Origin: Kaistella haifensis DSM 19056
Lineage (GTDB): Bacteria > Bacteroidota > Bacteroidia > Flavobacteriales > Weeksellaceae
Assembly: GCF_000735695.2 (NCBI RefSeq)
Contig: NZ_JASZ02000002.1
Location: forward strand, 124,001 to 188,000
Length of the DNA: 64,000 nt
Direction of reading: 5' to 3'
Shown: positions 1,661-26,768 of the stretch, piece after piece
Layout: every line of letters starts with the position of its first letter
Numbering within the stretch: position 1 is the stretch's first letter
The notes under the pieces: model-generated
Told to the model about the DNA's origin: nothing
Seen by the model: the letters and a program-made list of their open reading frames with translations, nothing else
Databases searched by the model: none
Translations under genes and position numbers: made by a program

Positions 1661-1842
1661 AACTCTTTTTTACCTTGATTTTTCCAAATTTCTAAAGCGA
1701 TGCCTGTTCTGAAGAAAAATTTCTCCTCACCCCAGAGTCTCATCGCATCTGCGCCGAATTTCATAGCTCCGAAAACTATTAAGAACTCAATTCCGCCTTC
1801 CTGCTTTTCAAAGGCATATTTGCCAGCTTGACTAAGCGCGAA
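1657..1842 (-). CDS. Frameshift extension of the tail assembly chaperone
   Basis: This frame has no start codon of its own. It opens just after a TAG near 1872, runs about 60 codons past the T6 run at 1841-1846 and ends at the TGA that overlaps the tape measure GTG. Its product (ALSQAGKYAFEKQEGG, then GAMKFGADAMRLWGEE) reads like real protein. It is reached from the upstream chaperone by a -2 or +1 shift at GAATTTTTTCGC. Tail chaperones with such G/G-T type extensions are common in tailed phages, and Mu-like phages are known for a -2 shift. The extended form would bind tape measure and tail tube during assembly. Confidence 0.65.
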   Translation of the reverse strand, partial: FALSQAGKYAFEKQEGGIEFLIVFGAMKFGADAMRLWGEEKFFFRTGIALEIWKNQGKKEL

Positions 1843-2242
1843 AAAATTCGCCTTTCTTACCTTCTAAAATGTTATTGATTTGCAGGAAAACCGCAATAAA
1901 GAGGTCTTCATCTTCGATCAGTTGATAATCGCCTTCCAGCCAAAGCTGTTCGATGATCATAGCAACCGCTTTGGACATTCCGTTGACTCCGATTGCGGTT
2001 AGGTAATCGCCAAGGTCTTCAGCGGTTGGAGGTCTGAGAACTGCTAGGAAATCATCTACTTTTAAATAGATCAGTTCCCGGTTTGCGTTTTCCTCTTTCC
2101 ATTCATCCAGCTTCTTTTGGGTGAATCTTTTCACAAATGCTGATAAATCCTTAACCACCGGTGATTTGTCGTTTTTTGCTTTTTCAGCTTCCTTTGCCTG
2201 TCTTTTGGCGAATACGTTTTTTAAGTCTTCTGTTTGTGACAT
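1832..2242 (-). CDS. Phage tail assembly chaperone
   Basis: A 136-residue, highly charged, helical protein encoded between the tail tube gene and the tape measure gene, the fixed position of tail assembly chaperones. The N-terminal 35 residues are rich in Lys, Glu and Asp; the middle contains AVLRPPTAEDLGDYLTAIG, typical of small phage chaperones. The zero frame ends EFFRA-stop directly after a run of six T residues on the coding strand, where ribosomes could slip into the extension frame. No enzymatic motif. The name rests on position and the frameshift arrangement rather than on a recognised domain. Confidence 0.7.
   Translation of the reverse strand: MSQTEDLKNVFAKRQAKEAEKAKNDKSPVVKDLSAFVKRFTQKKLDEWKEENANRELIYLKVDDFLAVLRPPTAEDLGDYLTAIGVNGMSKAVAMIIEQLWLEGDYQLIEDEDLFIAVFLQINNILEGKKGEFFRA
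1841..1846 (-). other. Probable programmed frameshift site in tail chaperone gene
   Basis: Six T residues on the minus strand lie between GAA and CGC five codons before the zero-frame stop. The useful downstream frame starts at 1842 (a -2 shift) or 1839 (a +1 shift). This is the place and arrangement expected for tail chaperone frameshifting. Confidence 0.6.
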
Positions 2243-4286: not shown

Positions 4287-4799
4287 TTAAATCAGGCGTT
4301 TCCAACGGAGTACACCGATTATTAAAAACAAAGAGAGGATTCCCATAAAGATTCTTCCGAACCAAATTTGAGTTTTCTGCCAGAACGTTAAAGGCTTTTC
4401 CACTTCAACAGGCACTTTGATGTAAATAGGTGTTTGCTCGTGCTCCTTGGTGTGGGTTTCCTCCCATTGTTTATGTAATTCCTGTGCTTTCGCTTCACAA
4501 TCACAGTTTAATTTATTGCCGTCTAATGTGGTTTTGGGAACTTTCAGACTTTTACCAGGCTTTGAGGCTGCTTTGGTTTCCTGAGTTTCCCGTAGTACCG
4601 GTTTCCCGTTCACACAGTCTACAAAAGCCGTGTAGAATGAGCTGTCTTTTTCCACTTTAAAGATTGTATCTCTTACAGTTTTAACAGTCTCCTTCGTTTT
4701 CGTGATGATCACCGGTTCCTGCGGTTTCCTGCTTTTGCAGGAAACCACCATCACCAGCGAATAAAAAATCAGAACTATGAAAAAAAAATTGCGTTTCAT
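4287..4799 (-). CDS. Candidate unimolecular spanin (lipoprotein with C-terminal membrane segment)
   Basis: A 170-residue protein with an N-terminal signal ending in a lipobox-like VVSC near residue 21 and a hydrophobic C-terminal helix (FGRIFMGILSLFLIIGVL, about residues 147-165) followed by basic residues. The 125-residue middle is polar and charged, with a Pro/Val-rich stretch (IYIKVPVEVEKP). An outer-membrane lipid anchor plus an inner-membrane C-terminal anchor in one chain is the topology of u-spanins, which fuse the two membranes at the end of phage lysis. The neighbouring gene, 1 base upstream, encodes the amidase, so the pair forms a lysis cassette. An alternative is a generic phage lipoprotein. 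Confidence 0.55.
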   Translation of the reverse strand: MKRNFFFIVLIFYSLVMVVSCKSRKPQEPVIITKTKETVKTVRDTIFKVEKDSSFYTAFVDCVNGKPVLRETQETKAASKPGKSLKVPKTTLDGNKLNCDCEAKAQELHKQWEETHTKEHEQTPIYIKVPVEVEKPLTFWQKTQIWFGRIFMGILSLFLIIGVLRWKRLI

Positions 4800-4800
4800 T

Positions 4801-5217
4801 TTAAAAATTTATTTGTTTCAGCCAAGTTTTGACATCAAAGCTTGGACAGGCTTTGTTCACTTTTGGAAAATCCCGATGGCCAGTAATTATGGCAGTGGGA
4901 AATTTTAATTTCAGCTCTTTTAAAAGCTTTATTTGTGATGCTTTTTGCGCATCGGTTCTGTTATCCAGAGGTTTGTTTTTAGCATCTACACCGCCGATAT
5001 AGGCGATATGAATACTGGGTGTGTTGTAACCGGCAACACCATTGGAGATTTGCTCAATCGGAAAAGTGTTCACTATTTCGCCATTGGCCTTAATCATAAA
5101 ATGATATCCGGGATTCTTCCAGCCTTTCACCCGCTTCCAATAATCTTTAATTGAATCAATGGTTGTGTTTTGCGGTGTGGCTGTGCAATGCAGCACTAAA
5201 TATTTGATAGCTCGCAT
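4801..5217 (-). CDS. N-acetylmuramoyl-L-alanine amidase (endolysin)
   Basis: A 138-residue single-domain amidase of the amidase_2/T7-lysozyme type. The first zinc ligand is in YLVLHCTATP, the central strand-turn is NPGYHFMIKANGEI, and later ligands are in TGHRDFPKVNKACPSFDV, giving the His, His, Cys pattern with the lysine used in catalysis. There is no signal peptide, so export needs a holin, which I did not find by sequence. It cuts the amide bond between muramic acid and the peptide stem at lysis. The candidate spanin gene follows directly. Confidence 0.88.
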   Translation of the reverse strand: MRAIKYLVLHCTATPQNTTIDSIKDYWKRVKGWKNPGYHFMIKANGEIVNTFPIEQISNGVAGYNTPSIHIAYIGGVDAKNKPLDNRTDAQKASQIKLLKELKLKFPTAIITGHRDFPKVNKACPSFDVKTWLKQINF

Positions 5218-5232
5218 AAGTGTTTTTAAGAA

Positions 5233-5262
5233 AAAAAGCCTACCTAATCAGATAGGCTTTTT
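5233..5262. terminator. Bidirectional intrinsic terminator
   Basis: A ten-base stem (AAAAAGCCTA pairing with TAGGCTTTTT) with a ten-base loop lies between the capsid gene and the amidase gene. The A and T flanks allow it to work on either strand. It would separate the abundant capsid transcript from the lysis and tail genes. Confidence 0.75.
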
Positions 5263-5283
5263 ATATTTATTTTGTGATTATTG

Positions 5284-6243
5284 TTAAGCGCCTTGAACGA
5301 TTGAGATAACTCCTTTCCAGTCAGCTCTCTTACATCTTGCACCCATTTTCAGTAATGTTGAGTAAACGTCACCGTAATACAGTGGGTTCCCTTTGTCATC
5401 AAACAAATGAGTGTCTCCCATTGCCTTGGTAACAGATTGCTTTTGCCATAACAGACAGCCTAAATTGTCAGTTGCTGCAAGAGCGGTTCCCGGTGCAATG
5501 GCTGCACCTTCACTGGTAAATGCCAATACTGAACTTCTTTCCAAAATTTTGAATCCTGCGAACTCACCAACAATACCCTTTGAAAGGTCAGCGGCGTTTT
5601 GGAATGCAGCCATTTGGTTAGCTGATAATGAATCCAAAAATTGCTGATACATGTAAGATTCAAGCATTGCATATCTCTCAGACTTTGGAACATTATCTTT
5701 GTTCATGATCGCCTGAGCTTTTTGAAGCTCTTTGTAGCTCAATGCCTTTCTGGTTCCAGTTTGGCCATCTTCACCATTTACAGCCTCGGCTGCACCTGTA
5801 GTTGGGATTTTTCTGTTTGCTGGTAAATTATCAGCTGTAACACCGCCGCCAACTGCTGGTTTAAATGCTCTTACCCAGTTGTAAACTACTTCATCACCTA
5901 CAGCTTCAATTAATGTATTGACATGATCGCCAAGTACAGAATCTGTTTTTTGGTAAGAAAGTTCCAGCTGGTCAGCCAGTGGCAAATGAGAAGGATCGGT
6001 AGTCCAAACATCAAGCGCATACACCAATGCTGTATCGGCTCTTTGCACCGCTGTTGCCGGATACACTGATCTGTTTTTTACCGTTCCGGGCTTTGCCCCG
6101 GCTTGTGGAATATAAACAACTGAACCACCTTTTACGAATTGAGATTCGTCAACACATAGTGCTAAATGGGGATTTTCTTTCCATAGTTTTTCAACTACGT
6201 ATTGCGCCCACAGTTCTTGTGGTACTTTTGGATTTTGTGCCAT
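5284..6243 (-). CDS. Phage major capsid protein
   Basis: A 319-residue protein encoded directly downstream of the protease-scaffold gene, as expected for a major capsid protein. The N-terminus (QELWAQYVVEKLWKENPHLA) resembles Bacteroidota Mu-type capsid proteins, with a middle that includes DQLELSYQKTDSVLGDHV and a Gly-rich loop. No signal peptide is present. It is followed by a strong terminator. The call rests on position, size and family resemblance; the fold cannot be read directly. Confidence 0.75.
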   Translation of the reverse strand: MAQNPKVPQELWAQYVVEKLWKENPHLALCVDESQFVKGGSVVYIPQAGAKPGTVKNRSVYPATAVQRADTALVYALDVWTTDPSHLPLADQLELSYQKTDSVLGDHVNTLIEAVGDEVVYNWVRAFKPAVGGGVTADNLPANRKIPTTGAAEAVNGEDGQTGTRKALSYKELQKAQAIMNKDNVPKSERYAMLESYMYQQFLDSLSANQMAAFQNAADLSKGIVGEFAGFKILERSSVLAFTSEGAAIAPGTALAATDNLGCLLWQKQSVTKAMGDTHLFDDKGNPLYYGDVYSTLLKMGARCKRADWKGVISIVQGA

Positions 6244-6248
6244 ATTTT

Positions 6249-7211
6249 TTAGTCTTGTTTTAGGTTAGGATACTTCTCATCTCTCAGTTTTTCATAGAGA
6301 TCAGGAAACTCTTTCTTTACGGTTTCCAGTTCACCGGAACTGTACAGATCATCAAAGGTTTTACCTTCGTATTTGCCAGCTTCTTTTTGCTCTGTAACCA
6401 ATACCTGCGCTGGTAATGTATCGATCAAATCTTTCAGTCCGGACGGATTTTCGGCATAGTCTTTCTCAAGCTTTGCAGCCAATTCGTTGGTCAGTTTTTT
6501 AGAGGTTTTTCCACCGGCAATAAGGTCTTGAACCTCCTTTGTTAAGGTTTCGGCCTTTACCGTTTTCAGTTCCTCATCTTTTGCATCCAAAAGATCTTTG
6601 TACTCGTCGGCTTTGTCAGCTTTAGCAACTAGGTTGTTAATAGCTGTTACGACGGCAGATTCGTCGCCGTCCTTTAGATTCAGTGCGGTAAGAATTACGG
6701 CAGCTTCTAGTGTGTTTTTCATATTTTTTAAAGTGAAATTTTCGAGATCGGATAAGTTGAGCTCGTTGTTATCTTTATCATAAAGATTAGCAAGAGCGTT
6801 GTAGTTTCCGGGAATATCCACCAGTGATATTTCACGCGAAAACCATTTTGTTACGGTAGGTTTTGTTTGTCCGGGTAACTTTAGATTTTTAGCATCTGAA
6901 GCTTCCAAAACGACAATCTTTCCAACAGAGGCAGCGTTTAGAAAACCACCTTCTATCTGGTCAACTATTGATTGACCTTCCGGATGTGATAGATTAACAA
7001 CCGGCTTTGCAAAAACTTTATCGCCATCGATACGGAAATCATCCCAACGAACGACAACACCTTTGTCACGGTTGTGCATGTGGAAGCCTATTGGATTCTT
7101 TTTGACTTCATCGATTTGAAATCCTGCCGTAAGACATCGGTAACCATAAACATTCACGGAATCATCAGTGATGCAAAATTCTTTGTCTATTTTTTTGAAA
7201 GTGTCGCTCAT
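6249..7211 (-). CDS. Phage head maturation protease with C-terminal scaffold
   Basis: A 320-residue protein. The first 150 residues look like a prohead protease, with a candidate catalytic His in GFHMHNRDK and Ser in NAASVGKIV. From about residue 160 the chain is helical, highly charged and Lys/Glu rich, like a scaffolding protein. Met164 (ATG at 6722-6720) is preceded by an A-rich stretch like other starts here, so a shorter scaffold could be made in frame, as with protein Z inside Mu gene I. It lies just upstream of the capsid gene and is the first gene of the minus-strand block. Confidence 0.75.
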   Translation of the reverse strand: MSDTFKKIDKEFCITDDSVNVYGYRCLTAGFQIDEVKKNPIGFHMHNRDKGVVVRWDDFRIDGDKVFAKPVVNLSHPEGQSIVDQIEGGFLNAASVGKIVVLEASDAKNLKLPGQTKPTVTKWFSREISLVDIPGNYNALANLYDKDNNELNLSDLENFTLKNMKNTLEAAVILTALNLKDGDESAVVTAINNLVAKADKADEYKDLLDAKDEELKTVKAETLTKEVQDLIAGGKTSKKLTNELAAKLEKDYAENPSGLKDLIDTLPAQVLVTEQKEAGKYEGKTFDDLYSSGELETVKKEFPDLYEKLRDEKYPNLKQD

Positions 7212-7448
7212 TTATTTTGAAAAAGGTTTAAAAAATTTGCTTTCAACTTGATACTTTAATTCGTGCTTATGAATGTTTGGAAATCCAAGAACATCCACAC
7301 CTAGCCAGAAAGAAATTATTATCGTTTTCATATTTGTCTGGCAAACTTCCAAAAACCTCTAACCGTTTGAAAATTAGTGCGCAAGGATTGCACAACTATT
7401 TCACTTTGAGGCTGTTTCACTTCATTTTTGTACCGAGAAATACTATTT

Positions 7449-7934
7449 ATGGCAATAAGCAAGTCGGAACAAAGGGAACACGCACGCCTTTTATATGTGA
7501 ATGAAAAAATCACATTAAAAGAAGTGGCAGAGCGTGTGAAAGTCACTGAGAAAACAGTGGGTAAGTGGTGCAAAGAAGATAACTGGGACGGTCTCAGAAA
7601 GAGCCTTTTAAACACCCGGGAAAATCAATTGATACACTTTTATAATCAATTGGAAGCTATCAATCTTGATATCGCCTTTCGACCTGAAATTCTGGATAAT
7701 AAGGGAAAGCCGATTCAGCGACCACAAAAAAACATTCCTACATCTGCTGAAGCGGATACATTGAGTAAAATAACTTCTAATATACAACGATTGGAGGTGG
7801 AAATCGGATTAGGTGAAATCGTACATACTGGCAAAAAGATGATCACCTTCATCCAGCAGATCAATCTACCGGATGCAAAGCTTTTTAAAAACTATTTCGA
7901 TGAGTACATAAATAACCGGGTGAAAAATGGCTAA
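7449..7934 (+). CDS. Phage terminase small subunit
   Basis: A 161-residue protein when started at the ATG at 7449, giving N-terminus MAISKSEQREHARLLYV. An N-terminal helix-turn-helix (LKEVAERVKVTEKTVGKWCKE) is followed by a long helical region, the arrangement of small terminases that bind the packaging site and load the large subunit. The coding region overlaps the large subunit gene by 8 bases, so the two are translated together. It is the first gene of the plus-strand head block, divergent from the protease gene. No clear flavobacterial promoter was found in the 237-bp gap. Confidence 0.75.
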   Translation: MAISKSEQREHARLLYVNEKITLKEVAERVKVTEKTVGKWCKEDNWDGLRKSLLNTRENQLIHFYNQLEAINLDIAFRPEILDNKGKPIQRPQKNIPTSAEADTLSKITSNIQRLEVEIGLGEIVHTGKKMITFIQQINLPDAKLFKNYFDEYINNRVKNG

Positions 7935-9462
7935 TCGCAAAAAAACCGATAAAGAGTGGTTACAGGAGTGGAAAGAATTTGGAGACAATATCGACAACGC
8001 CACACCCATTGACCTCGCAGAGTTATCTACCGAAAAACTAAAACGCATTAAGCGACTGGAAGAGAATGATGAGGAATGGTTTAAGTATTATTTCCCAAAT
8101 TTCTATACCTCAGAACCTGCACCGTTTCACTTAGCATCTACCAAAAAAGTAATGCGGAATTCTGAGTATTACTTGGTGAGAAGTTGGGCGCGTGAACTTT
8201 CAAAGTCCGGGCGTACAATGATGGAGGTTTTGAAATTAATCCTTACCGGCAAGAAAAAAAATACGCTTCTGGTTTCAAACTCCTGGGATAATGCCAATAG
8301 GCTTTTAATGCCTTACAAAACAATCCTTGAGAGAAACAATAGAATCATTAATGACTACGGCCAACAGAAAAGAATTGGAAGTTGGGAAGAGGGAGAATTC
8401 ACCACCCGAAAAGGTTGTGCTTTTCGCGCCGTTGGGGCTGGGCAATCGCCGAGGGGTACGCGTAACGATTCCATTCGTCCGGATATTATTTTAATTGATG
8501 ATATCGACACTGATGACGATTGCCGAAACTCTGAAATTATTGATAAGCGTGTAAAATGGATCGATGAAGCTTTGATTCCAACGCGGTCTATTTCTAACGG
8601 TTTACTGATTATCGCCTGCGGAAATATCATTGCAGATTATTGTTGTATAACCGAAATGGGTAATAAGGCAGATAGCTGGGAAATTGTAAATATCCGGGAC
8701 GAAAACAATAAATCCACTTGGCCAGAAAAAAACACGGAGGAACTGATTGATATTGCACTCAGAACCACAAGTTACGAGTCTATCCAAAAGGAATATTATA
8801 ATAATCCAATGGACGGCGGAAAAGTCTTTAAAAACTTGACCGACAAAACGCCTTTTATGTTGAAGCACTGCGATTATGTGGTGATTTATGCCGATCCAGC
8901 AACCAGCAATTCTGAAAGTAAAAAATCATCATCCAAAGCGGTCGGAATTGTCGCCAATAAGATGAGGGAATATAATATTCACAAGGCATGGGTAGACCAG
9001 ATGACAAACTCGAAATTCATTGATTATCTCTTCGAAGCTTACATGATTTGTAAGAAAGCAGGTGTTGAAGTTATTTACATCTACATCGAAAATAATACGC
9101 TGCAAAATCCTTTTTATGAGCAGGTTCTATTGCCGCTGATTTATGCAAAATCACAGGAGCTGAACATCATACTCCCAATTCGACCTGACGAGCGCAAAAA
9201 GCCAGATAAATGGTCAAGGATTGAAGGGAAGTTAGAGCCGTTGGTAAGATTGGAGCATCTGACTTTTAACGAGCGTGAAAAAGATAATCCGCACATGATG
9301 AGATTAAAAGCACAATTCAAAAATGCCAATTCCAAAGCAAAGCTTCTGGATGGTCCCGATATGATCGAGGGTGCTGTTTCAATCATCGACGATAAGAGAG
9401 CCAGCGAAGCACTTGGCTCTGTAGAATCAGTGCAACGTCAACCTAGCCGTCATAGACTTTAA
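7927..9462 (+). CDS. Phage terminase large subunit
   Basis: A 511-residue motor-nuclease. The ATPase half has a deviant Walker A (RELSKSGRTMM, about residue 88) and a Walker B with DIILIDDIDTDDD near 185. The nuclease half begins with YVVIYADPATSNSESKKSSS near 318 and contains further acidic positions (YIYIENNT). This is the Mu gp28-like packaging ATPase type. It pumps DNA into the prohead through the portal encoded downstream. Its start overlaps the small subunit gene and is followed by a 10-bp gap to the next gene. Confidence 0.88.
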   Translation: MANRKKTDKEWLQEWKEFGDNIDNATPIDLAELSTEKLKRIKRLEENDEEWFKYYFPNFYTSEPAPFHLASTKKVMRNSEYYLVRSWARELSKSGRTMMEVLKLILTGKKKNTLLVSNSWDNANRLLMPYKTILERNNRIINDYGQQKRIGSWEEGEFTTRKGCAFRAVGAGQSPRGTRNDSIRPDIILIDDIDTDDDCRNSEIIDKRVKWIDEALIPTRSISNGLLIIACGNIIADYCCITEMGNKADSWEIVNIRDENNKSTWPEKNTEELIDIALRTTSYESIQKEYYNNPMDGGKVFKNLTDKTPFMLKHCDYVVIYADPATSNSESKKSSSKAVGIVANKMREYNIHKAWVDQMTNSKFIDYLFEAYMICKKAGVEVIYIYIENNTLQNPFYEQVLLPLIYAKSQELNIILPIRPDERKKPDKWSRIEGKLEPLVRLEHLTFNEREKDNPHMMRLKAQFKNANSKAKLLDGPDMIEGAVSIIDDKRASEALGSVESVQRQPSRHRL

Positions 9463-9473
9463 ACATATTTAAA

Positions 9474-9977
9474 ATGAGTTTAATAACACCAAAAGACCTC
9501 GACACTGAACTGTACGCAGAGGTCATTAACCAAATCACACGATATCAGGAACCGGTAGAAAATGAAGACCCGGAAACTGTTCCCGTTGCTGAAATCAATC
9601 AGGAAGTACAGGATCATATCGATGATGCTGAAGCATTCATCAAAACTTTCCTTTTTAAATATGATCTGGATAAACTTTTCGGAACTGAAGATTCGGATCC
9701 AGCAGTAAAAGACCATGCTCTGAAAAAATGCGTAAAGGTAACGACGTCTTGGTTCCTGATTCGGAAAGCAAATCCGAACGTTAATCTGTCAAGATTCGAA
9801 GCTGATTTTATGTTTTGGATCGGAACAGAGGAAGAGCCGGGATGGATTTACGGAATCCGGGACGGGAAACTAAATCCGGGTTGGCCTTATCCGGCTGACG
9901 ATCCTGACACCCCGGAAGATGAAAGTGGAAGCGATGTCTATTGGACATCTACAACTAAACGAACAAACAGATTTTAA
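9474..9977 (+). CDS. Phage gp36/DUF1320-like head-tail protein
   Basis: A 167-residue acidic protein with the pattern of Mu gp36/DUF1320 proteins: N-terminal SLITPKDLDTELYAEVIN, a helical core with DAEAFIKTFLFKYDLDKLF and KKCVKVTTSWFLIRKANP, and a Pro/Asp-rich tail. Related proteins sit at the head-tail connection. It is encoded between the terminase and portal genes, with the portal ATG one base after its stop codon. Confidence 0.65.
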   Translation: MSLITPKDLDTELYAEVINQITRYQEPVENEDPETVPVAEINQEVQDHIDDAEAFIKTFLFKYDLDKLFGTEDSDPAVKDHALKKCVKVTTSWFLIRKANPNVNLSRFEADFMFWIGTEEEPGWIYGIRDGKLNPGWPYPADDPDTPEDESGSDVYWTSTTKRTNRF

Positions 9978-9978
9978 A

Positions 9979-11325
9979 ATGACAGAAGATTTAAAACCGC
10001 GCCCGCAAAAGCAAACCGCTCAACCGACATACATAATCCAGGATATTAACCTTGTTTCGCCAGATCGTAGCAGGAAGGATGTTCAGTCGCTTAAAAACTC
10101 CGTTGTCATTGCTGAATCAGTTCATTACCCGAACAGAGTACTGCTGTATGATCTGTATCATGATGTTGTTTCTATGGACGGCTTTCTTGGGGGAATTATT
10201 GATAAAAGAATCAATTCAGTTCTCAATAAAAAATTAATTTTTAAGGACAAAGAAGGCAACGAGAACAAAGTGGTGACCAAACTCATGCGCAGCAAGTCTG
10301 GAAGATCTTTGATAAAGAAAATACTGGAATCCATTTTCTGGGGTATTTCGGGTGTTGAATTTAAGATCGGAGAAAAGTTTTGTTTTGACGAAATCGAACG
10401 AAAGCACATCAAGCCGGAAAAGGGTTTGATTGTTAAAAACCAATACAGCATTTCCAAAGATGAAGGCTTTAAAATTGACGAGCTGCCATTTGTTTGGGTG
10501 ATCGGTGATAAAAAGGATCTCGGCTTATTGTTGGGCTGTTCACTGTACGCAATTTACAAACGAGGAAACTTTGGTGATTGGGCGCAATATGTAGAAATTT
10601 TCGGCCAACCGGTTCGAATTATGGAATATGATGCCTATGACACACAAACCAAAGAGGAGCTTAAAAAGATTCTCAATGAGTCCGGAAACTCATTAGCAAT
10701 GATGATTCCAAAGCAGGCAACTTTCCAGATGTTGGACGGCAAAGCCAGTAATGGTGACGGACAATTACAAGGTGGTTTTAAAGCTGCCTGTAATGAAGAA
10801 ATGGCTATTAAAATCCTTGGAAACACGGAAACCACATCCGCGAGCAAATCTTCCGGATATGCGCAATCTAAAGAGCATGGTGAACAACAAGACGAGATTA
10901 TCGCCTCTGACTTAATCATGGTTGAGAATGAGCTGAATTCTGAATATTTCCTTAATATTCTGAAATCTTACGGTTTTGATGTTGAAGGCGGTGAATTTGA
11001 GTATGAGTTAGAATTAAATCTAGCCAAACTGAAACTCAAAATGGAGATTGATTTTAAAGTTGCAGAAAAGGTACCGGTGGAAGATGATTATTGGTATAGT
11101 ACCTATGGCATCCCAAAACCAAAGAATTACGACGCTTTGAAAAAGAAAATGGAGGAAAGTAAACTGCCGGTTATTGATGACGGTACCAAGACAGAAAAAA
11201 AAGGTACCAAGATCAATGATGCCACTTCGAAAAAGGAAGGAGATCTCGCGGATTTTAGCAACCCTACAATTCTAGACCAGTTTTTCAAAAAGATGGCCGA
11301 TTTTTTCGACCACGCCCGACGGTAA
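9979..11325 (+). CDS. Phage portal protein (DUF935, Mu gp29-like)
   Basis: A 448-residue protein with features of the DUF935 portal family: SMDGFLGGIIDKRINSVL near residue 60, LLGCSLYAIYKRGNFGDWAQ near 180, and the loop segment ILGNTETTSASKSSGYAQS near 280. The ATG at 9979 is preferred because it follows the gp36-like stop codon directly. Portal dodecamers form the DNA entry vertex. The last codons (DFFDHARR-stop) lie in a frameshift signal that could fuse this protein to the Mu-F-like protein encoded next. Confidence 0.85.
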   Translation: MTEDLKPRPQKQTAQPTYIIQDINLVSPDRSRKDVQSLKNSVVIAESVHYPNRVLLYDLYHDVVSMDGFLGGIIDKRINSVLNKKLIFKDKEGNENKVVTKLMRSKSGRSLIKKILESIFWGISGVEFKIGEKFCFDEIERKHIKPEKGLIVKNQYSISKDEGFKIDELPFVWVIGDKKDLGLLLGCSLYAIYKRGNFGDWAQYVEIFGQPVRIMEYDAYDTQTKEELKKILNESGNSLAMMIPKQATFQMLDGKASNGDGQLQGGFKAACNEEMAIKILGNTETTSASKSSGYAQSKEHGEQQDEIIASDLIMVENELNSEYFLNILKSYGFDVEGGEFEYELELNLAKLKLKMEIDFKVAEKVPVEDDYWYSTYGIPKPKNYDALKKKMEESKLPVIDDGTKTEKKGTKINDATSKKEGDLADFSNPTILDQFFKKMADFFDHARR

Positions 11326-11332
11326 TCGGGCG
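11301..11332 (+). promoter_or_regulatory. Probable -1 ribosomal frameshift signal (portal to Mu-F protein)
   Basis: A zero-frame slippery heptamer T-TTT-TTC sits at 11301-11307. Five bases later a perfect 7-bp GC-rich stem starts (CGCCCGA 11313-11319 with TCGGGCG 11326-11332), and its 6-base loop holds the portal stop codon. A -1 shift enters the frame of the Mu-F-like gene, which is open from 11259 but has no ATG, GTG or TTG before 11502. Confidence 0.65.
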
Positions 11333-11501
11333 GTTAAATAATCTGTACGCCACACACTGTGAAGATTGTGGTGGACATTTACCGGATCTTGCAGACCAAG
11401 ACAATAATTGGGATGAAATTTATCAGATTATTGCTGAACAGCTGAACGATCCAAACATTCTAATTAATGCTGATCTGCACCTGAAAACGGCACAAAGTTT
11501 A

Positions 11502-12275
11502 ATGAAAGCGGTAAACTCAGGACTTGAAGGTATTGGAAGTTCTGAAGACGATCAGCGGATTCTAATTGAGAAATTGAAGCAAAACATCTATGCGTTTTCG
11601 GCGGCGAAATCTCTCACTCAAATGCAATATTACCGTGATGCAATGATTGAAGATGGCAAGATAATAAGTGGATCGGCATTCGTTAAAAAGATAGCAGATA
11701 CAGGAGAAATTTTCAATAGGAAATTTTTGGAAACCGAATCCGAAAATGCACATTATAGTGCGATAATGGCGGATAAATGGGATAGGTTTGCGGAAGAGGA
11801 TTGGTTGCAATATTCTACGGTTGGTGATAGTCGTGTAAGACCATCGCACGCGGTTCTTGATAAATACACCGCTCCGAAATCACATTTCTTCTGGAAAACA
11901 AATTATCCGCCAAATGGCTGGAGCTGTAGATGCATGGTGGTTCCGGGAAAATCAAATTATCAAAATAAATTGACGGACCAGGAGGCAGACATACAGTTAA
12001 AAGAAGAAAACAAAGATTCGCCGTTTTACAATAATGTTGGAATATCGAAAGTGATATTTAAAGAAAACCATCCGTATTTTATCAATTCAAAAGGAAAGGA
12101 GCAAAATCTGAGCTGGCAACAGTATGGATTGCCCAATCTTGAAAAAATAAAAACTTTTGAAGGCTACTCCGAAACATGGATGAATGCAAAAGGTGTGATC
12201 ACTGAAGTAGATTTTACCGCGGGCGACCCTAAGAAGATTGACAAACTAAGAAAAGGCATTTTAATAGACCGATGA
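11502..12275 (+). CDS. Phage Mu-F-like minor head protein (may start upstream by frameshift)
   Basis: The C-terminal half carries the Mu-F/SPP1 gp7 signature: STVGDSRVRPSHAVLDKYT followed by FFWKTNYPPNGWSCRCMVV. The family makes a minor head or head-morphogenesis protein that associates with the portal. The first ATG in frame is at 11502, but the frame is open and protein-like for another 60 codons upstream (WDEIYQIIAEQLNDPNILIN and more), reaching into the portal gene at the slippery site near 11301. The full product is therefore probably a portal-MuF fusion made by -1 frameshifting, or begins at a rare start codon. Its stop codon overlaps the next ATG. Confidence 0.82.
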   Translation: MKAVNSGLEGIGSSEDDQRILIEKLKQNIYAFSAAKSLTQMQYYRDAMIEDGKIISGSAFVKKIADTGEIFNRKFLETESENAHYSAIMADKWDRFAEEDWLQYSTVGDSRVRPSHAVLDKYTAPKSHFFWKTNYPPNGWSCRCMVVPGKSNYQNKLTDQEADIQLKEENKDSPFYNNVGISKVIFKENHPYFINSKGKEQNLSWQQYGLPNLEKIKTFEGYSETWMNAKGVITEVDFTAGDPKKIDKLRKGILIDR

Positions 12276-12832
12276 GTCCAGAAGAATTTGACAAAGTTTT
12301 GCAACGTAAATCAGCCGAGCTGAAGACATACACTGAAGTAAAGTTTCCTGCAAAAGCCGGAAAGATTGCTTTGCGTTTTGTGAACGGGAATTTTCGGGCG
12401 CAAGGCTTTCAAGGTGCATCTTTCAAAAAGTGGAAATCTACCAAGCGTGGTGGTACCATTCTCGTGAAAACGGGAAAATTGAGGGCTGCAACCTATTTCA
12501 CAACACAGGTAGGTCAAGCAACAATTCAGAACCACATGCCATACGCAAAAGCGCACAATGAAGGATTCAGTGGTGATGTGACTGTAAAGGCTCACACTAG
12601 AAATAGGTACGGAAAAACAAAGATCGGCACCGGTAAATATACCAAAAGCGGAAATGAAAGGCAGAAAACTGTTACCATGAAAACGGGTCAAAGTTCTGTA
12701 AAATCTCACACCAGAAAGGTGAATATTGCACAACGCCAATTTGCTCCAACCGCTGCCAATCCAAGTCCTGTTTTAAATAATGCCATCTCCAGAGAAGTAT
12801 TACGGGATATCAACGAAATAATCAAAAAATAA
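12272..12832 (+). CDS. Phage virion morphogenesis protein (tail completion, Mu gpG-like)
   Basis: A 186-residue basic protein of the phage virion morphogenesis type. It shows the family's central pattern, with KKWKSTKRGGTILVKTGKLR followed by AATYFTTQ and MPYAKAHNEG, then a Lys/Thr/Gly-rich section and an AQRQFAPTA end. Family members act in tail completion or head-tail joining. It overlaps the preceding gene by ATGA and the next gene by TAATG, so the three are translationally coupled. Confidence 0.75.
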   Translation: MSPEEFDKVLQRKSAELKTYTEVKFPAKAGKIALRFVNGNFRAQGFQGASFKKWKSTKRGGTILVKTGKLRAATYFTTQVGQATIQNHMPYAKAHNEGFSGDVTVKAHTRNRYGKTKIGTGKYTKSGNERQKTVTMKTGQSSVKSHTRKVNIAQRQFAPTAANPSPVLNNAISREVLRDINEIIKK

Positions 12833-13347
12833 TGGATTACTTTTTTTCACAAATATTAATTGATCTTCAGAAAAGGATTTCCAAAGAAGTTCCCGCAATT
12901 CAGTACATTGATCAGGACCTTGGCCAATTAGGGCAAGTTGGTGAAAATGGCCGTCCGGCGTTAGCCTATCCAGCGGTTTTAATTGATTTCCCGAACTCTG
13001 ATTATTCAGAACTTTCCAGTTCTGCACAGTTGGGAATGGTACCAATCACTTTTCAGCTCGTGTTTGACAACTACAGCGCGACTTGGCACAAAGCTCCACT
13101 AAGAGACAGAATGAAAGGTTTAGAATATTTGGAGATTGAACAGAAACTCCACAATGCGCTGAACGGATGGAGTGAGGATTATTTCACCAACCTGACCAGA
13201 ACCAACGTGAAAAGCCAGAATAACAATGATATCGGGTTACGCGTCCGCCAACTGACTTATACGACATCTTACGAGGATTACAGCACAAATCAGGAGGAAA
13301 CCAAAGAAGTGGTTTTTAAATTTAATGGTGGATTAAAACCTAATTAA
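12832..13347 (+). CDS. Phage head-tail joining protein, putative
   Basis: A 171-residue protein that starts inside the TAATG overlap with the preceding gene. Mixed strands and helices are seen, with PALAYPAVLIDFPNSDY near residue 45 and MVPITFQLVFDNYSA near 75, like gp37/tail-terminator proteins of Mu-type phages of Bacteroidota. It is the last gene of the plus-strand head block and converges with a short minus-strand gene, sharing 8 bases. Function is inferred from position. Confidence 0.6.
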   Translation: MDYFFSQILIDLQKRISKEVPAIQYIDQDLGQLGQVGENGRPALAYPAVLIDFPNSDYSELSSSAQLGMVPITFQLVFDNYSATWHKAPLRDRMKGLEYLEIEQKLHNALNGWSEDYFTNLTRTNVKSQNNNDIGLRVRQLTYTTSYEDYSTNQEETKEVVFKFNGGLKPN

Positions 13348-16752: not shown

Positions 16753-18111
16753 TCAGTATTTTGTGATTTCAATATCTCTGTCAGTCAATCCAAATTTAGT
16801 GATTTGTTTTTGAATTCTTTTGGCTGCAGCAATTTTTCTTTTCTCGTCAAGGAACAGATATAGTGAAGGTGGTTGGTAGCTTTGCCCTTTCACAAGCATG
16901 TTCCAGATGATGACGGCAAGTTTGCGGGCCAGTGCAGAGACAGCAGTTGCTCTTCCTTTCTTGTAGTTCAACCTTTTGAAAAAGTCTGCGAGCCAGCCTT
17001 CTTTGAGATTACCGATGGCATTGGCAGTGTTTCGAAAGGCAATTTTGAGCCTTGAACTTCCTTTCGGGATGTGGTTGGACAGCACCTTGCCTCCGCTTAT
17101 CTTGTTGTTTGGCGCAAGCCTAAGCCAGGCCGTGAACTGTTTAGCAGTGGGGAATTTCCTAATACCGTCTAATCCGATTTCAGCAATAAGGGTCATAATC
17201 AATCCCTCACTTACCCCTTCAATAGCCATCAGATCTACACCTTCGAAGTATTGGTAAGCAATTAAATTCATATCCGTTTGGCTTACCGCATTTTTGTTTT
17301 TTCGCTTGTGCTTTTTTTTTTCAATGGTATGCTGTTTCTTATGGTCGTCTTTATCGATGAGTTCTTTCAGCAGTTGATCAATTTGTAAATCTGTCTCTGT
17401 GATTTGCTGTTGAAGGTGTTTATAGGAGTTCCACTCCTGTTGCAAAGCAAAAAGATAATCTTTACGACCGTTAAATTGCAGGGCTTTTGCAATTTCTTCC
17501 TCTGATTTCCGGCAATTATAATGACGGAGTTTTGCCAAGTCCTCACCTTGATGCTCACCCTTTAAAAAAGCCTCAATAATCGATGATCCGGTAAGGCCAA
17601 CTACATCCCTTACCACGACTTCTAACCGCATATTCATCAACCGAAGGTATTTTTGAATTCTCCTGACGCATGATGCGGATTGCTTCAGCAGATTCTGCCG
17701 GTGTCTGGAATAGGTCCGTACAGTATCCGTGTCCGAATCTGGCAAAAAACTGGCACTCAAAAGCCCGAGAGAATGCAGTTTCTGTATCCACTGACAATCT
17801 TTAATGTCGGTCTTTTTTCCTTTGATGTTTTTGGTTTGTCTGCCATTCACCAAAATCACCTCAAAACCCTGGCCCACCAAAGTGGAAAATAGGTTTTGCC
17901 AGTAAGTTCCGGTGGATTCCATTGCAATGGAGGTAACACCTTTTGAGTGTAGCCAGTTACACATCTCGAGCTGATCTTGGCTGTACACCCCAAATTCTTT
18001 TACATCCTCGGCATTTTGCCCTACAGCTGCCCAGTGGCTGCGGCTGCCAATGTCTATTCCACACGCATTGGGATGTACCACTTCGAGTGAAATCTGCTTC
18101 TTAATTTCCAT
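16753..18111 (-). mobile_element. IS110-family transposase (DEDD recombinase)
   Basis: A 452-residue protein with both IS110 parts. The N-terminal RuvC-like DEDD domain shows ACGIDIGSRSHWAA, AMESTGTYWQNLF and TDIKDCQWIQKLHSLGLL. The C-terminal part has AIEGVSEGLIMTLIAEIG followed by the serine region IPKGSSRLKIAFRN. A Lys-rich linker lies near residue 270. IS110 enzymes recombine DNA guided by a structured RNA made from the non-coding end of the element. It separates the prophage from the cassette island. The gene is intact and may be active. Confidence 0.92.
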
Positions 18112-18330
18112 GTCTTAATTTTTTAAATTAAACCAATAAAAACTCCAAGGATTGCACTTTGCTAAATTTGAAATTATTCTGATCGGGATATCTGCTTTTG
18201 GCGGACTCACCATTAAAAACTAACACCGTCTGAAGTATTACTACCAAAGACTTTTGTGCAATCTTACCTGAATTGCAGACGGGTTTTTTAAACACCATTG
18301 CTTAAACCGGTCTTTTCAAGGAGCAGGTAC
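18112..18330 (-). ncRNA. Probable IS110 non-coding end with bridge RNA
   Basis: About 220 bp lie upstream of the transposase start without any gene. In IS110 elements this end is transcribed into the bridge RNA that pairs with target and donor DNA. An 8-bp inverted repeat (GATTGCAC at 18150-18157 and GTGCAATC at 18256-18263) brackets about 98 bases and could close such an RNA. The boundaries, loops and strand are inferred; the exact end of the element cannot be set from one copy. Confidence 0.4.
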
Positions 18331-18422
18331 TAAGGTAAGAAATAATGGATTTGGAATATTGAATTTTTCACGCCGACTCCTCCTCGTTAGCGGCTAAAAA
18401 CAACTTCGTTTTCGAGTAGGGG

Positions 18423-18556
18423 AATTGCAGGTAACGGTTTGCAGCTTGGCGAAGTGGCGGAAATCGAAGCACAAATGTTGAGTTTTGCACAAAAGTTCAA
18501 TCGAAGAACTGAACTTGAATTTAGCAATGAACCCGCCATTTTGCCAAACTGCTGTT
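18423..18556 (-). repeat. attC-like imperfect palindrome 1
   Basis: A 134-bp imperfect palindrome. The left arm TTGGCGAAGTGGCGG pairs with CCCGCCATTTTGCCAA on the right, the outer ends carry the triplets AAC and GTT, and the centre contains CGAAGCACAAA shared with other copies. On the minus strand it follows the gene at 20976-21647, as attC follows a cassette gene. The IS91-like element starts immediately after its terminal GTT. Confidence 0.6.
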
Positions 18557-18633
18557 GAACTAAACCTCCGGTAGCTTTTCCCATTCGCCGTTTTAGTAAC
18601 TTTGTTTTTATTAACCCTTAAAAAACATATAAA

Positions 18634-19634
18634 ATGGCTACAAAAAAAAATCTCCGGAGGATTTAAGGACCAACAAATTTCTCAATCGTGCCTCGAGCGA
18701 AGTTAATGGTTTTGCCGAACTTCTGCAACGCTTCGAAAGAAATATTTCCATCCTGGGCAGAAGCAAACGTACCTTCGACAATTATTCCCGTCACGTTGCA
18801 GCCTTGGCGCTTCATTTCGGTAAAGTCCCTACCGAATTAGACCCGGAAGACATCAAAGATTACCTTTTTGAACTTCAAAAGCGATCAAAAACCCCTTCTC
18901 AGTCGTACTTTAAACATACCGTTTACGGACTGCGGTTTTTGCTGAAAACCGAAGGCTTGCCTTACAGCTACCTCCATCTTCCCGCGATTCCAAAAGTGAA
19001 AAAACTTCCCACTATTTTAAGCCGTGAAGAAATCTGGCGAATGCTTCAAAGTGCTGAACTCCTGAAACACAAACTGCTCATCGGCCTGATCTACGGTTGC
19101 GGACTGCGCTGTATGGAAGTAAGGAATATCAAGCTTCAGCATTTGGATTTTGACCGGAAGATGCTGCATATCGTTCAGGGTAAAGGCAGCAAAGACCGCT
19201 ATGTTCCCCTGTCCGAACATTTAATCAGAGGCTTGAAAACCTTCATCAGTATTGAAAATCCGGATCAGTATTTATTCAATGGGAACCACAACAGGAATAT
19301 TGAGGAGATTGATTTAAAAACACATCAAAACGCTTTACAGAAACCTGATTTTGACTCCCGCTACAGCCAGCGCGGTGTGCAGTGGGTAATAAAAACCATT
19401 TCTAAAAAAGCCGGCATCACCAAAGAGGTTCACACCCATACTTTGCGCCACAGCTACGCCACGCATCTGCTGGAAGAAGGCGTTCCGATCATCATGGTTC
19501 AGAAACTTCTGGGTCATGAAAGAATTGAATCGACCATGGAATATCTTCATGTCTGCCAGCTTTCGGATCAGAAGCCTCACAGTCCTTTGGATACCGTTTT
19601 CGCTTTATGCCGCAAAAATGGAATCCCGAAGTAA
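18634..19634 (+). CDS. Tyrosine recombinase of IS91-like element (needs +1 slippage)
   Basis: A phage-integrase-type recombinase. Catalytic parts are GCGLRCMEVRNI (first Arg), the Lys-containing VQGKGSKDRYVPL, HTLRHSYATHLLEEG (His-x-x-Arg), GHERIESTMEYLHV (final His and Tyr). The N-terminal SAM-like core-binding part is encoded from an ATG at 18634, but that frame stops after ten codons because of a run of nine A residues at 18642-18650. One more A gives an unbroken 333-residue protein. The deleted second copy has the same nine A residues, so this may be regulated slippage, not decay. Without slippage only a TTG at 18804 could start it. Confidence 0.82.
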
Positions 19635-20724
19635 GGGCAGAAGTGTAGCCGACGTTCTGCGCAAAATCAATTTATCGGCTCAAAATTTTACGGGTCATCA
19701 GGAAAAAACGCTTCGGGCTTTGTCCTATTGTCGGACTTCCGCCTTGGGCGGCCATATCGATGCGTGCGACGGTTGCGGAAATCTTTCCATCAGTTACAAC
19801 TCGTGTCGTAATCGGCATTGTCCGCAATGTCAAGGTCATAAAAAAGAAGAATGGATTCAGAAGCGCGAAGCGGATTTACTCCCGTGCAGCTATTATCATC
19901 TCGTTTTCACGCTTCCCGAAGAGCTGAACGGTTTGGCAATTGCAAATCCCACACTCATTTACAAAACATTGTTTGAAGCCGCCTGGGCAACTTTAAACCA
20001 ATTCGGTAACACCGAAGGAATACAGCTCGGAATGATTGCGATACTTCACACGTGGGGACAGAACCTGAGCTTGCATCCGCACCTGCACTGCATTGTTCCT
20101 GGCGGCGGAATTGATCATCACGGAAAGTGGAAAAAGAAAGTACGAACCGATAAATATCTCTTCTCTGTAAAAGCGATGAGCAAAGTATTCCGGGCAAAGT
20201 TTGTGGCTTTATTGAGAACTTCGGGAGTAAAAGATTCCAATTTAATGGATAAACTCTTTACCAAGAACTGGGTCGTCTATGCAAAACGTCCTTTTGGCGG
20301 CCCGAAACAGGTCATCGAGTACTTGGGCAGGTACACCCACAAAGTCGCCATCAGCAACCACCGTATCAAAGAAGTTACCGATAAAAAAGTGCATTTTAGC
20401 TACAAAGATTACCGGAAAGGTGGCGAAAAAAAGGAGATGACCCTATCCCATGTGGAGTTTATCAGGCGCTTCAGTCTGCACATTCTGCCAAAAAGGTTTG
20501 TGCGGATCCGCCATTACGGGATTTTGAGCAGCAGCTGGAAACGTGGGAAACTTCAGGCTCTGCAATCCGATTTAAAGATCAAGATCCCGGAGGTAACACC
20601 CAAAACGCTGCTCAATAAATGCCGGTGCTGCAAGGAGGGAAACCTGGTGACCATTGCCGTTTTCGGGCAGCGCGGTCCGCCGCAGGATTTTCTTTTCGTT
20701 ACCCAACCTTTGTCTGCAAAATAA
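19618..20724 (+). CDS. IS91-family HUH transposase
   Basis: A 368-residue transposase when started at ATG 19618, overlapping the recombinase gene by 17 bp. The N-terminal zinc ribbon is CDGCGNLSISYNSCRNRHCP, the HUH metal motif is HPHLHCIVPGGG, and the tyrosine region is YLGRYTHKVAISNHRI. Such Y1/Y2 enzymes nick single-stranded DNA and move the element by rolling-circle replication. A paired upstream recombinase is a known feature of some IS91 elements. Confidence 0.92.
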   Translation: MESRSKGRSVADVLRKINLSAQNFTGHQEKTLRALSYCRTSALGGHIDACDGCGNLSISYNSCRNRHCPQCQGHKKEEWIQKREADLLPCSYYHLVFTLPEELNGLAIANPTLIYKTLFEAAWATLNQFGNTEGIQLGMIAILHTWGQNLSLHPHLHCIVPGGGIDHHGKWKKKVRTDKYLFSVKAMSKVFRAKFVALLRTSGVKDSNLMDKLFTKNWVVYAKRPFGGPKQVIEYLGRYTHKVAISNHRIKEVTDKKVHFSYKDYRKGGEKKEMTLSHVEFIRRFSLHILPKRFVRIRHYGILSSSWKRGKLQALQSDLKIKIPEVTPKTLLNKCRCCKEGNLVTIAVFGQRGPPQDFLFVTQPLSAK

Positions 20725-20927
20725 CCTTTGCGGGTAAGGGAAGCTGTGCCCTACCGCCAGTAAAACCCCGCAGAACCCGCTTCCAAAGGCTACCCAACGC
20801 CACAAAAAAAAGCAGTCCTTCTGAAAAACTGCTTTGCACCTCTAAATTCTAAAAACGACATCCCCATAAGAGGACCATCATACTGCTGAAAAGCCACCGG
20901 AGCTTCCGTTCAACGGGCTTTCATTTC

Positions 20928-20942
20928 TTGTCTTGCAGACAA
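20928..20942 (+). other. Conserved terminal hairpin of IS91-like element (candidate oriIS)
   Basis: TTGTCT pairs with AGACAA around a TGC loop 18 bp from the end of the element. Copy 2 has TGTCC-TGC-GGACA at 25175-25187, where the T-A pair has become C-G on both sides. This compensating change supports a structure used at the replication origin end of IS91 elements. Confidence 0.5.
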
Positions 20943-20975
20943 AACGAAAGCTTAGTTATTGTGCGATGTTTTTTT

Positions 20976-21647
20976 TTAACATTGTGATTTAATTTTTATC
21001 GATTTGGCTCTGATCGCAAAAAATTCCTTGACTAAAATTTCATCATCTTGAATTAGCTCTGCAGAACCGCGAGAGATTATTGTCGTAGAAGTTGGAGATT
21101 TCCAAACTTGCCGAAAACAACCCTTTATTTCAGGAAAGTTATTGACAAAAAAAGAGATGGCAAATTCGTCATTCCAATATTGCTCTATTATAGACTCTAA
21201 AATGGCATCATATTTATGGATGATTCTATCTTGCAAAACACTATTTAGTTTTAAAGGTATGTTATGGCATAAATCAGCCAACAATCTAGCGTTATTGTCT
21301 TGACTGTGTCGAATTTCTATAAATGCATAGTATAAGGCTTTGTGCAAAATCAATCTTGTGTCAATTTGCGAGTCGTCGGTAAAAAAATCTTCATAAACCT
21401 CAAAGAAAAGGTCGAAAGCCACACTACTATTCCCATTGCAATAATTTAAAATAATCTGAACCCAATCAATATCAACCTTTTCGGAAAAATATAATTGGCA
21501 GTATTTGGAGAATAAGATATTGTCTTCAAAAGAATGCGCAACATTAATTCTATCAATATACCTTGCCAACTCGTATAAATTTCTTTCGCCTAAATAATTG
21601 GAAGGGTTATTTTTTAATTTTGAAATATCGTTTGCAATTCTATACAT
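20976..21647 (-). CDS. Cassette-borne protein of unknown function (223 aa)
   Basis: A 223-residue, helix-rich, cytoplasmic protein, starting YRIANDISKLKNNPSNYLGE with conserved-looking aromatic and acidic residues (FFEVYEDFFTDDSQIDTR, then NFPEIKGCFRQVWKSPT). I do not recognise the family. The gene fills its cassette: it stops about 15 bp from the left boundary (GTGCGATG) and starts 26 bp from the right one (ATCGCACAAC), and those two boundaries are complementary. Such compact packing is typical of integron-type cassettes. Confidence 0.6.
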   Translation of the reverse strand: MYRIANDISKLKNNPSNYLGERNLYELARYIDRINVAHSFEDNILFSKYCQLYFSEKVDIDWVQIILNYCNGNSSVAFDLFFEVYEDFFTDDSQIDTRLILHKALYYAFIEIRHSQDNNARLLADLCHNIPLKLNSVLQDRIIHKYDAILESIIEQYWNDEFAISFFVNNFPEIKGCFRQVWKSPTSTTIISRGSAELIQDDEILVKEFFAIRAKSIKIKSQC

Positions 21648-21663
21648 AATATTGGTTTAAAAT

Positions 21664-21800
21664 ATCGCACAACGTTTCGGCGCTTGGCGAAGAAGCGGTT
21701 TTCGAAGCACTAAACTGTCCGCCAGCACTGAACTTGATACGAAGCACAAAGCTTCATTTAAGCACTGAACCCGCTTTTTTGCCAAACGCCTGTTGTACCA
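21664..21800 (-). repeat. attC-like imperfect palindrome 2
   Basis: TTGGCGAAGAAGCGG on the left pairs with CCCGCTTTTTTGCCAA on the right; compared with palindrome 1 the inner pairs changed together (TGG/CCA to AAG/CTT). The outer triplets are AAC at 21671-21673 and GTT near 21792-21794. It is the only complete copy without an insertion in this array apart from palindrome 4. On the minus strand it lies between the DUF4184 gene and the 223-residue gene. Confidence 0.65.
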
Positions 21801-21804
21801 CCAG

Positions 21805-22533
21805 TTATTTTTCTTTCGTCCTTGTCAGCCACGGTGTTATTGTTAATGAAATTAGTCCTGCGGAAATAGCTGTCACAATTACGTTTCCGTATTGTTTATA
21901 GTCAAGTCCGCTTAAAAGTCTTACTGCAATAATTGTCAAAGTTAGTCCTGCTAAAATTGTCCAATATTTCAAATTTATATTTTCTTTTTCAGTCTTGTTT
22001 GTCGGCAGTTTGTAAATGGCAAAAACAATTACAAGTCCACCAAGTAAAGTTGAACCGTGTTGTAATATTTTCAGCATTGGAATTTGTCTGCCTAAAAAGT
22101 CCACCGAGTTTTGTAATGCTGGAATTGTTTGAACGAAATAGCCGTGGTCGTGAGTAAAGCTGTCCCAAAATATGTGAGAAGCTGCACCGATTAGAATTGA
22201 AATTGTCACTACTAACCAATTTCTTTTGAAGTGTCCATTCCAGTCAAACTGTCTAAATGCCGAAAATCTTGATTTTAAAATTGTCGGCAAGTTGTCGAAT
22301 AAACTGTCTCGAACAATGTTGTGAAAAATGAAAGCAAGCAACAGTCCTAAAGGTAAGTCGAACCAAAAAAGTCCGTCAATTGTGTGGCTGTAATTGCTCT
22401 TAATTCTCATTCTTAAAAAGTATTCAAAGTCTGGTGTCATACTACCGATTACAAGTCCAGTCAACGAGAACCATTGTCGAGGCAAAAATGTCAACGGTAA
22501 AACTATTGCTGGGTGTGAAAATGTAAATGGCAT
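21805..22533 (-). CDS. DUF4184 family membrane protein
   Basis: A 242-residue multi-helix membrane protein of the DUF4184 family. The start PFTFSHPAIVLPLTFLPRQW and the following LTGLVIGSMTPDFEYFLRM match the family's N-terminal signature, and GAASHIFWDSFTHDHGYFV near residue 120 supplies His and Asp residues typical of membrane-bound metal-dependent hydrolase relatives (YdjM-like). Three more hydrophobic segments follow. Its role is unknown. The gene is a cassette: its stop is about 10 bp from the left palindrome and the ends TACCACC and GGTGGTA are complementary. Confidence 0.8.
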   Translation of the reverse strand: MPFTFSHPAIVLPLTFLPRQWFSLTGLVIGSMTPDFEYFLRMRIKSNYSHTIDGLFWFDLPLGLLLAFIFHNIVRDSLFDNLPTILKSRFSAFRQFDWNGHFKRNWLVVTISILIGAASHIFWDSFTHDHGYFVQTIPALQNSVDFLGRQIPMLKILQHGSTLLGGLVIVFAIYKLPTNKTEKENINLKYWTILAGLTLTIIAVRLLSGLDYKQYGNVIVTAISAGLISLTITPWLTRTKEK

Positions 22534-22581
22534 TTCTTTTTGTCTGTTCGTTTATTTGTTTCAGGGTCGTCTTTTATAATT

Positions 22582-22710
22582 GGTGGTAACGTTTCGGGGC
22601 TTGGCGATGGCGGGCAAACCGAAGCCGAAACTTTCAACTAAAATACAAATTTTAATCGAAGCACAAAACGTGAACTGATAAATTTCCGCCCGCTATTGCC
22701 AAACCCTTGT
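22582..22710 (-). repeat. attC-like imperfect palindrome 3 (right end invaded)
   Basis: TTGGCGATGGCGGG pairs with CCGCCCGCTATTGCCAA. It begins after GGTGGTAAC and should end CCCTTGTT, but a group II intron begins after CCCTTGT at 22711 and an IS91-like copy follows the next T. Removing both restores CTTGTTATCGGCAG, complementary to the far end of the next cassette (TTGCCGATAAC). Confidence 0.6.
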
Positions 22711-24566: not shown

Positions 24567-24567
24567 T

Positions 24568-25206: not shown

Positions 25207-25221
25207 ATCGGCAGTGGTTTT

Positions 25222-26016: not shown

Positions 26017-26079
26017 AGTATATAATTAAAATAAAAAGAGCATTACTTGTTAGTAATGCCCACTTTTTAGGTCGTTTCT

Positions 26080-26340: not shown

Positions 26341-26450
26341 ATAAATTAAAAGTTTTATATTGAGTTGATAAATTAATAAAAAATCTTTTAAAGAACAAAA
26401 TTTATTTTTATTTTTTTTCAATTTTGCATCAGATTTCGTAATTTTTATAT

Positions 26451-26652: not shown

Positions 26653-26768
26653 CAACCTCTTTTCAAAGATACGGTAAAAAGATTTCAGAAATAGAAAATG
26701 TGGTTATAAACGGGTTTAAAATATTGAAAATCAATTGTATATATCGTTTATTCTCCGTAAATTAGCGT

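Follow-up and report, generated by a model that had tools for sequence, protein, structure and literature searches.

The window analysed here is a stretch of 64,000 nucleotides from Kaistella haifensis DSM 19056. It contains a prophage with a Mu-type portal gene, and the reading frame of a MuF head protein opens in the -1 frame before the portal gene ends. The two genes, their junction and their neighbours are:

7927-9462, forward strand: terminase large subunit (phrog_38, E 6e-56)
9474-9977, forward strand: head-tail adaptor (phrog_195, E 1e-5)
9979-11325, forward strand: Mu-type portal gene (Portal_Mu, PF06074), zero-frame product 448 aa, Pfam E 2e-58
11301-11307, forward strand: slippery heptamer T TTT TTC, its zero frame being the portal frame, kept in frame in about 90 dereplicated relatives
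11308-11313, forward strand: spacer GACCAC, 5 nt (GACCA, 11308-11312) to the 7-bp stem and 6 nt to the conserved 6-bp core
11313-11332, forward strand: predicted 3' stimulatory hairpin, arms CGCCCGA (11313-11319) and TCGGGCG (11326-11332), 7 bp, no mismatches
11320-11325, forward strand: hairpin loop CGGTAA, containing the portal stop
11323-11325, forward strand: portal stop codon TAA, read from the sequence
11307-12275, forward strand: MuF reading frame (-1) after the putative slip (Phage_Mu_F, PF04233), 322 aa, Pfam E 8e-11
11307-11501, forward strand: N-terminal part of MuF, 65 aa with a C-x2-C motif, out of reach of any ordinary start codon
12272-12832, forward strand: tail completion or Neck1 protein (Mu G-like; phrog_26, E 8e-16)

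The head genes are split by strand. The lysis-like, major capsid and protease genes are found at 4287-7211 on the reverse strand, and the genes from terminase to neck at 7428-13347 on the forward strand. The protease is inverted in Hankyphage and in Elizabethkingia phage TCUEAP3 as well. A cluster of mobile elements occupies 16753-28322, with an IS110 transposase (16753-18111, reverse), a tyrosine recombinase (18804-19634, forward) that overlaps an IS91-type transposase (19516-20724, forward), a group II intron reverse transcriptase (23206-24351, forward) and a DDE transposase (26769-28322, forward). A restriction-modification pair, an N6/N4 DNA methyltransferase and an ApaLI-like restriction endonuclease, is located at 28382-30353 on the reverse strand.

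Both proteins at the junction are clearly recognised, the portal with 198.8 bits against a curated cut-off of 23.9 for PF06074, and MuF with 43.1 bits against 29.6 for PF04233. The longest open reading frame of the portal starts at 9919 and has 468 aa, and in an alignment of relatives the ATG at 9979 is the start in close relatives. The gene ends with the codons GCC GAT TTT TTC GAC CAC GCC CGA CGG TAA. A first-pass annotation of this DNA had read a -1 frameshift signal here, and its description holds base for base as regards the T TTT TTC in the zero frame and the spacer of 5 bases. The MuF frame is also open from 11259, as it said, and runs to 12275 (338 aa), and the sensible protein it saw there is the PF04233 match. 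It had found no ordinary start for MuF before 11502, and this is the case, as the earliest ATG, GTG or TTG is at 11502. The perfect 7-bp stem with the portal stop in its loop is exact in the window, but the core conserved in the family is only 6 bp, GCCCGA/TCGGGC (11314-11319 and 11326-11331), most commonly starting 6 nt past the heptamer, and the outer C-G pair is peculiar to the window sequence.

The AlphaFold2 model of MuF has a mean pLDDT of 85, and the helices at residues 36-45 and 55-73 are near or above 90. A start at 11502 (residue 66) would, according to this model, cut the helix 55-73 and lose the helix 36-45. A fold search of the PDB with the model gave nothing below E 0.9. The heptamer sequence TTTTTTC occurs 82 times in the AT-rich 64-kb window, which is no excess over expectation, and the window hairpin alone is not significant when a 60-nt fold is compared with shuffles (z -0.71). 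A common heptamer and an ordinary fold imply that the window sequence could not decide the matter by itself.

Relatives were collected by similarity of the portal or the MuF protein, the DNA signal never being used for selection. They came from phage records, from contigs of viruses and of genomes, from whole genomes within the host family and from a phylum-wide profile search. The first 12 close relatives, whose portals are 65-84% identical, all share GAT TTT TTC G.C C.. GCC C.. together with a perfect stem. Among 121 dereplicated Mu-type portal loci, a count that includes related sequences, 89 have MuF in the -1 frame and, no more than 26 codons from the portal stop, T TTT TTC in frame. The others are divided into 10 with MuF in -1 and another heptamer of the type X_XXY_YYZ, 10 with portal and MuF in a single open reading frame, 8 with the next frame at +1, and 4 of other kinds. 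An enlarged set of 168 loci, likewise including related sequences, gave 94 with heptamer and perfect hairpin, 21 with heptamer and no perfect hairpin, 16 one-frame fusions, 22 where the next gene has its own ATG, and 15 others. With one representative for each group of less than 60% identity, T TTT TTC was present in 29 of 69 and another heptamer in 10. In one Flavobacteriia lineage (L168-L172, L197 and L029) the portal end carries A AAA AAG or G GGA AAG instead of T TTT TTC, and a conserved stretch similar to TAAGCCT comes next.

The heptamer is restricted to the end of the portal gene and to one register. In-frame T TTT TTC was found 90 times in 2,775 terminal portal codons, as compared to 3 times in 43,291 codons of the gene body, and the terminal heptamers are distributed over the three registers as 90/1/1. 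The codon in front of the heptamer always ends with T, yet it encodes any of seven amino acids (D, S, N, G, R, Y or H). The register also bears on the possibility that the polymerase slips on the T run, giving mRNAs with one extra base and the same fusion with ribosomes that do not slip. A polymerase would not require a fixed T6 register, and it would leave the hairpin at a constant 5-6 nt downstream unaccounted for. Six T residues is also a short run for polymerase slippage. What fits this explanation are the runs of T9-T10 or A8-A11 at the junction that lack a clear hairpin (L059, L123, L143, L016 and L157-L161), where slippage of this kind may operate. As a general mechanism it is rejected for T6 by the fixed register, though not for the T9-T10 and A8-A11 lineages, and for the signal as a whole we give it very little credence. 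In L059, L123 and L143 the T9-T10 run is found with MuF in +1 or -1, and these runs could represent either transcriptional slippage or homopolymer sequencing errors.

A stem beginning 3-7 nt past the heptamer was found in 86 of the 90 loci with an in-frame heptamer, as compared to 5% of dinucleotide shuffles. The first-pass annotation had named the conservation of heptamer and stem in related prophages as a check, and these numbers show that they are conserved. The median folding z of the relatives is -2.74. Of 94 loci, 64 have a spacer of 6 nt between heptamer and stem and 19 have one of 5 nt (5-6 nt in 83), and the 5' arm occurs in 44 different sequences among the same 94. In 31 distinct close sequences four stem pairs are invariant and the fifth is GC in 19, AU in 10, CG in 1 and UA in 1, and it is never broken. 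As judged from these alignments, the predicted hairpin is conserved and shows compensatory changes. A Shine-Dalgarno-like stimulator upstream was observed in 4 of 95 loci, which is below the 15% of control windows. The loci thus have a zero-frame X_XXY_YYZ heptamer, an RNA structure within 5-9 nt and a -1 extension that in most of them has no start of its own, and they lack the Shine-Dalgarno-like stimulator that is common in bacteria but not obligatory.

Conservation of the MuF coding sequence sets in at the very first codon behind the slip, with the pattern R..P.....L...Y...C..C in 91 loci. In 13 of 89 loci there is a stop in the -1 frame immediately 5' of the slip site, which makes a start further upstream impossible in these. 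An ATG in the MuF frame between the upstream stop and 60 nt past the heptamer is present in only 13 of 89 loci, and the first MuF-frame ATG is found at a median of 217 nt downstream. These observations are difficult to combine with a separate MuF that is initiated independently, or by coupling, near the portal stop as in phage Mu, with the hairpin aiding re-initiation and the heptamer being incidental. In phage Mu, a dedicated ribosome site serves MuF (F), whose start at 16073 precedes the portal stop by 20 nt, and in H70, SuMu, FPSV-S1 and pippi8-1 MuF has its own ATG. The first-pass annotation had named an ATG start together with a missing heptamer as the observation that would count against a frameshift. 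Such an arrangement is found solely in these distant lineages and a few scattered members, and in no close relative. In the window and most relatives there is no MuF-frame ATG for more than 200 nt, initiation at the first downstream start in the window would cut a confidently predicted helix, coding is conserved 5' of any start all the way up to the slip, and the 90/1/1 register would be left with no reason. Separate initiation as the general explanation is accordingly given little weight.

Named phages carry the signal as well. Hankyphage p00 has CGT TTT TTC GGG AAA GCCCCG...CGGGGC. The annotated MuF gene of this phage begins at an ATG that overlaps with the portal stop, which is an observation in favour of separate initiation. 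Because of an ATG near the junction, Hankyphage and 12 others may use independent MuF starts alongside the slip. In TCUEAP3 the signal is present and MuF is annotated from an ATG 275 nt past the portal, leaving a gap that is not explained. Winogradskyella phage Peternella_1 has an A-run heptamer, and its annotated MuF begins about 100 nt late.

A portal tree, made with a quick method that gave long-branch warnings, places 142 rows in a single clade (SH-aLRT 99) which contains all T TTT TTC loci, 17 other heptamers, 16 fusions and 13 separate genes. In the sample taken from the portal profile alone, the fetched members of this clade have either a slip site or a one-frame fusion. The 23 rows outside, H70 and SuMu among them, are mostly separate genes or have nothing recognised, and two of them (L202 and L206) have A-run heptamers. 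A sub-clade of five loci within the clade (L061, L117, L120, L127 and L129) serves as a natural control. MuF is absent behind the portal, the slip signal is also absent, and the portal is followed by the gene that in the window comes after the neck gene. This loss of the signal together with MuF matches what is predicted for a programmed frameshift. The portal C-terminus is shortened in these five loci.

The one-frame fusions in relatives could be taken to mean that the window has a broken gene or a sequencing error, a base having been lost from a former single-frame fusion. On the tree the fusions are nested within the slip-site lineages and require at least four changes, and the same layout, with coding conserved on both sides, is found in about 90 dereplicated loci. 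This conservation refutes a gene break or sequencing error, which retains hardly any probability. It also follows from the 16 loci that fuse in one frame that a ratio of two products is not required in every lineage.

Some fusions seem to have kept the means of making the short product. In L149, a Porphyromonas phage, and in L070 the zero frame of the fusion retains T TTT TTC and the hairpin, and the -1 frame reaches a stop 24 and 13 codons past the slip site, respectively, which implies that slipping would yield a short portal. The polarity is the same as in E. coli dnaX, where the slip gives the short product. In L134-L148, eight related viral contigs, the hairpin is kept and CTT TTT C replaces the heptamer. 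Their +1 frame meets an early stop at the hairpin, apparently a remnant of the place where the portal once ended. At the junction of L157-L161 there are A8-A11 runs, and in most of these loci the -1 frame soon reaches a stop. Taken together, these sequences suggest selection for a short and a long portal, whichever frame encodes the long one; the case is strong in L149 and L070, and elsewhere it is weak.

The tests made by sequence comparison (heptamer, register, compensated hairpin, coding, starts and co-loss) all support the -1 frameshift signal that the first-pass annotation proposed. In this comparison the signal, its register, the hairpin and the coding in two frames come out as being under selection across Bacteroidota Mu-like phages. 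We consider it very probable, from the sequences, that the junction is a conserved programmed -1 ribosomal frameshift which gives the portal and a minority portal-MuF product. Most ribosomes would pass T TTT TTC and terminate at the TAA at 11323-11325, giving the short portal. A minority would pause at the hairpin, where the two Phe tRNAs would re-pair one base back, from TTT TTC to TTT TTT, and continue in the MuF frame. The product would be the portal through F-F followed by 322 MuF residues, about 765 aa when counted from 9979. The predicted tryptic transframe peptide for the window fusion is MADFFRPRPTVIGR. For Hankyphage, most phage proteins of the virion were identified by mass spectrometry of gel slices (PMC12135933). 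The heptamer U_UU.U_UU.C is among the more efficient ones in E. coli, and T TTT TTC itself is in use by some IS elements (PMC4066793).

The arrangement resembles that of IS3 and IS1 elements and dnaX in its zero-frame X_XXY_YYZ, a stem-loop 5-7 nt away on the 3' side and a conserved -1 extension. It differs from them in joining two virion proteins, portal and MuF, and in the absence of the upstream Shine-Dalgarno-like stimulator. Head structural genes are known to give a short major and a long minor form, as gp10A and gp10B of T7, and the major head protein of Lactobacillus phage A2 and Listeria phage PSA reportedly have frameshifted forms of the same kind. In T7, A2 and PSA it is the major capsid protein that is extended, whereas the extension here would be added to the portal and consist of an entire separate head protein domain. 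The tail assembly chaperone G/GT has a conserved -1 slip in a late phage operon and gives N-terminal and N- plus C-terminal products, as would be the case here, but the genes are different and the chaperones are not virion components. In the window the gene behind the tail tube (1832-2242, reverse strand) ends with GAA TTT TTT CGC GCT TAG, and its -1 frame runs on for about 60 codons to about 1660 on the same strand. This overlap is probably the G/GT tail assembly chaperone frameshift, and the prophage may therefore use two frameshifts.

Mu gp29-gp30 and SPP1 gp6-gp7 are the same gene pair as in the window, in the same order and with the same Pfam families. In those phages MuF is made from its own start, whereas the window MuF would be an extension of the portal. 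The one-frame portal-MuF fusions of Porphyromonas phages (DBA55165) have the same domain order and the same fusion point, and unlike the window they do not need a frameshift. Portal C-termini point into the head, which implies an internal position at the portal vertex for a fused MuF. Short and long subunits would then be combined within a single ring, placing a few MuF copies inside the head at that vertex. The slip on the ribosome, its efficiency and this mixing in the ring with MuF at the vertex are what we infer from the conserved arrangement. The MuF protein of SPP1, gp7, binds the portal, and each capsid has one or two copies of it (PMC5576092). Such a low number would be in keeping with a ring of about 12 subunits in which the frameshift product is rare. 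For the window and its relatives the sequence comparison predicts a portal-linked MuF, not a free minor head protein bound to the portal. That the slip sets the MuF dose at one vertex is plausible, and it is the least certain step of the explanation. The slip could be regarded as a translational ruler that sets the number of MuF-bearing subunits per ring, covalently and at one vertex, with a need for short and long forms that predates the frame arrangement; we hold this idea tentatively, at somewhat less than an even chance. The greater age of this need is suggested because L149 and L070, and perhaps the A-run loci L157-L161, keep a slip signal that gives the short form.

Frameshifting and portal-MuF fusions are known kinds of arrangement, and a conserved frameshift that joins both across Bacteroidota Mu-like phages appears to be new. 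No earlier report of a portal-MuF frameshift was found in the searchable open-access literature, and a mention elsewhere, for example in Sharma et al. 2011, is possible. PRFect mentions MuF-like genes solely as fusions with VIP2-type ADP-ribosyltransferases, and the portal is not mentioned in the openly available parts of the GeneTack survey and of a 2016 review on frameshifting.

If the slip is right, MuF appears to be mis-annotated or truncated in many Bacteroidota Mu-like phages, including Hankyphage of the human gut, and in reality it would be made as part of a fusion with the portal. The slip would add a conserved recoding site, consisting of heptamer and hairpin alone, in a phylum that rarely uses Shine-Dalgarno signals in translation. 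It would also offer an answer to how a minor head protein of one or two copies is placed at a single vertex, which is that it would be translated as part of some of the portal subunits.
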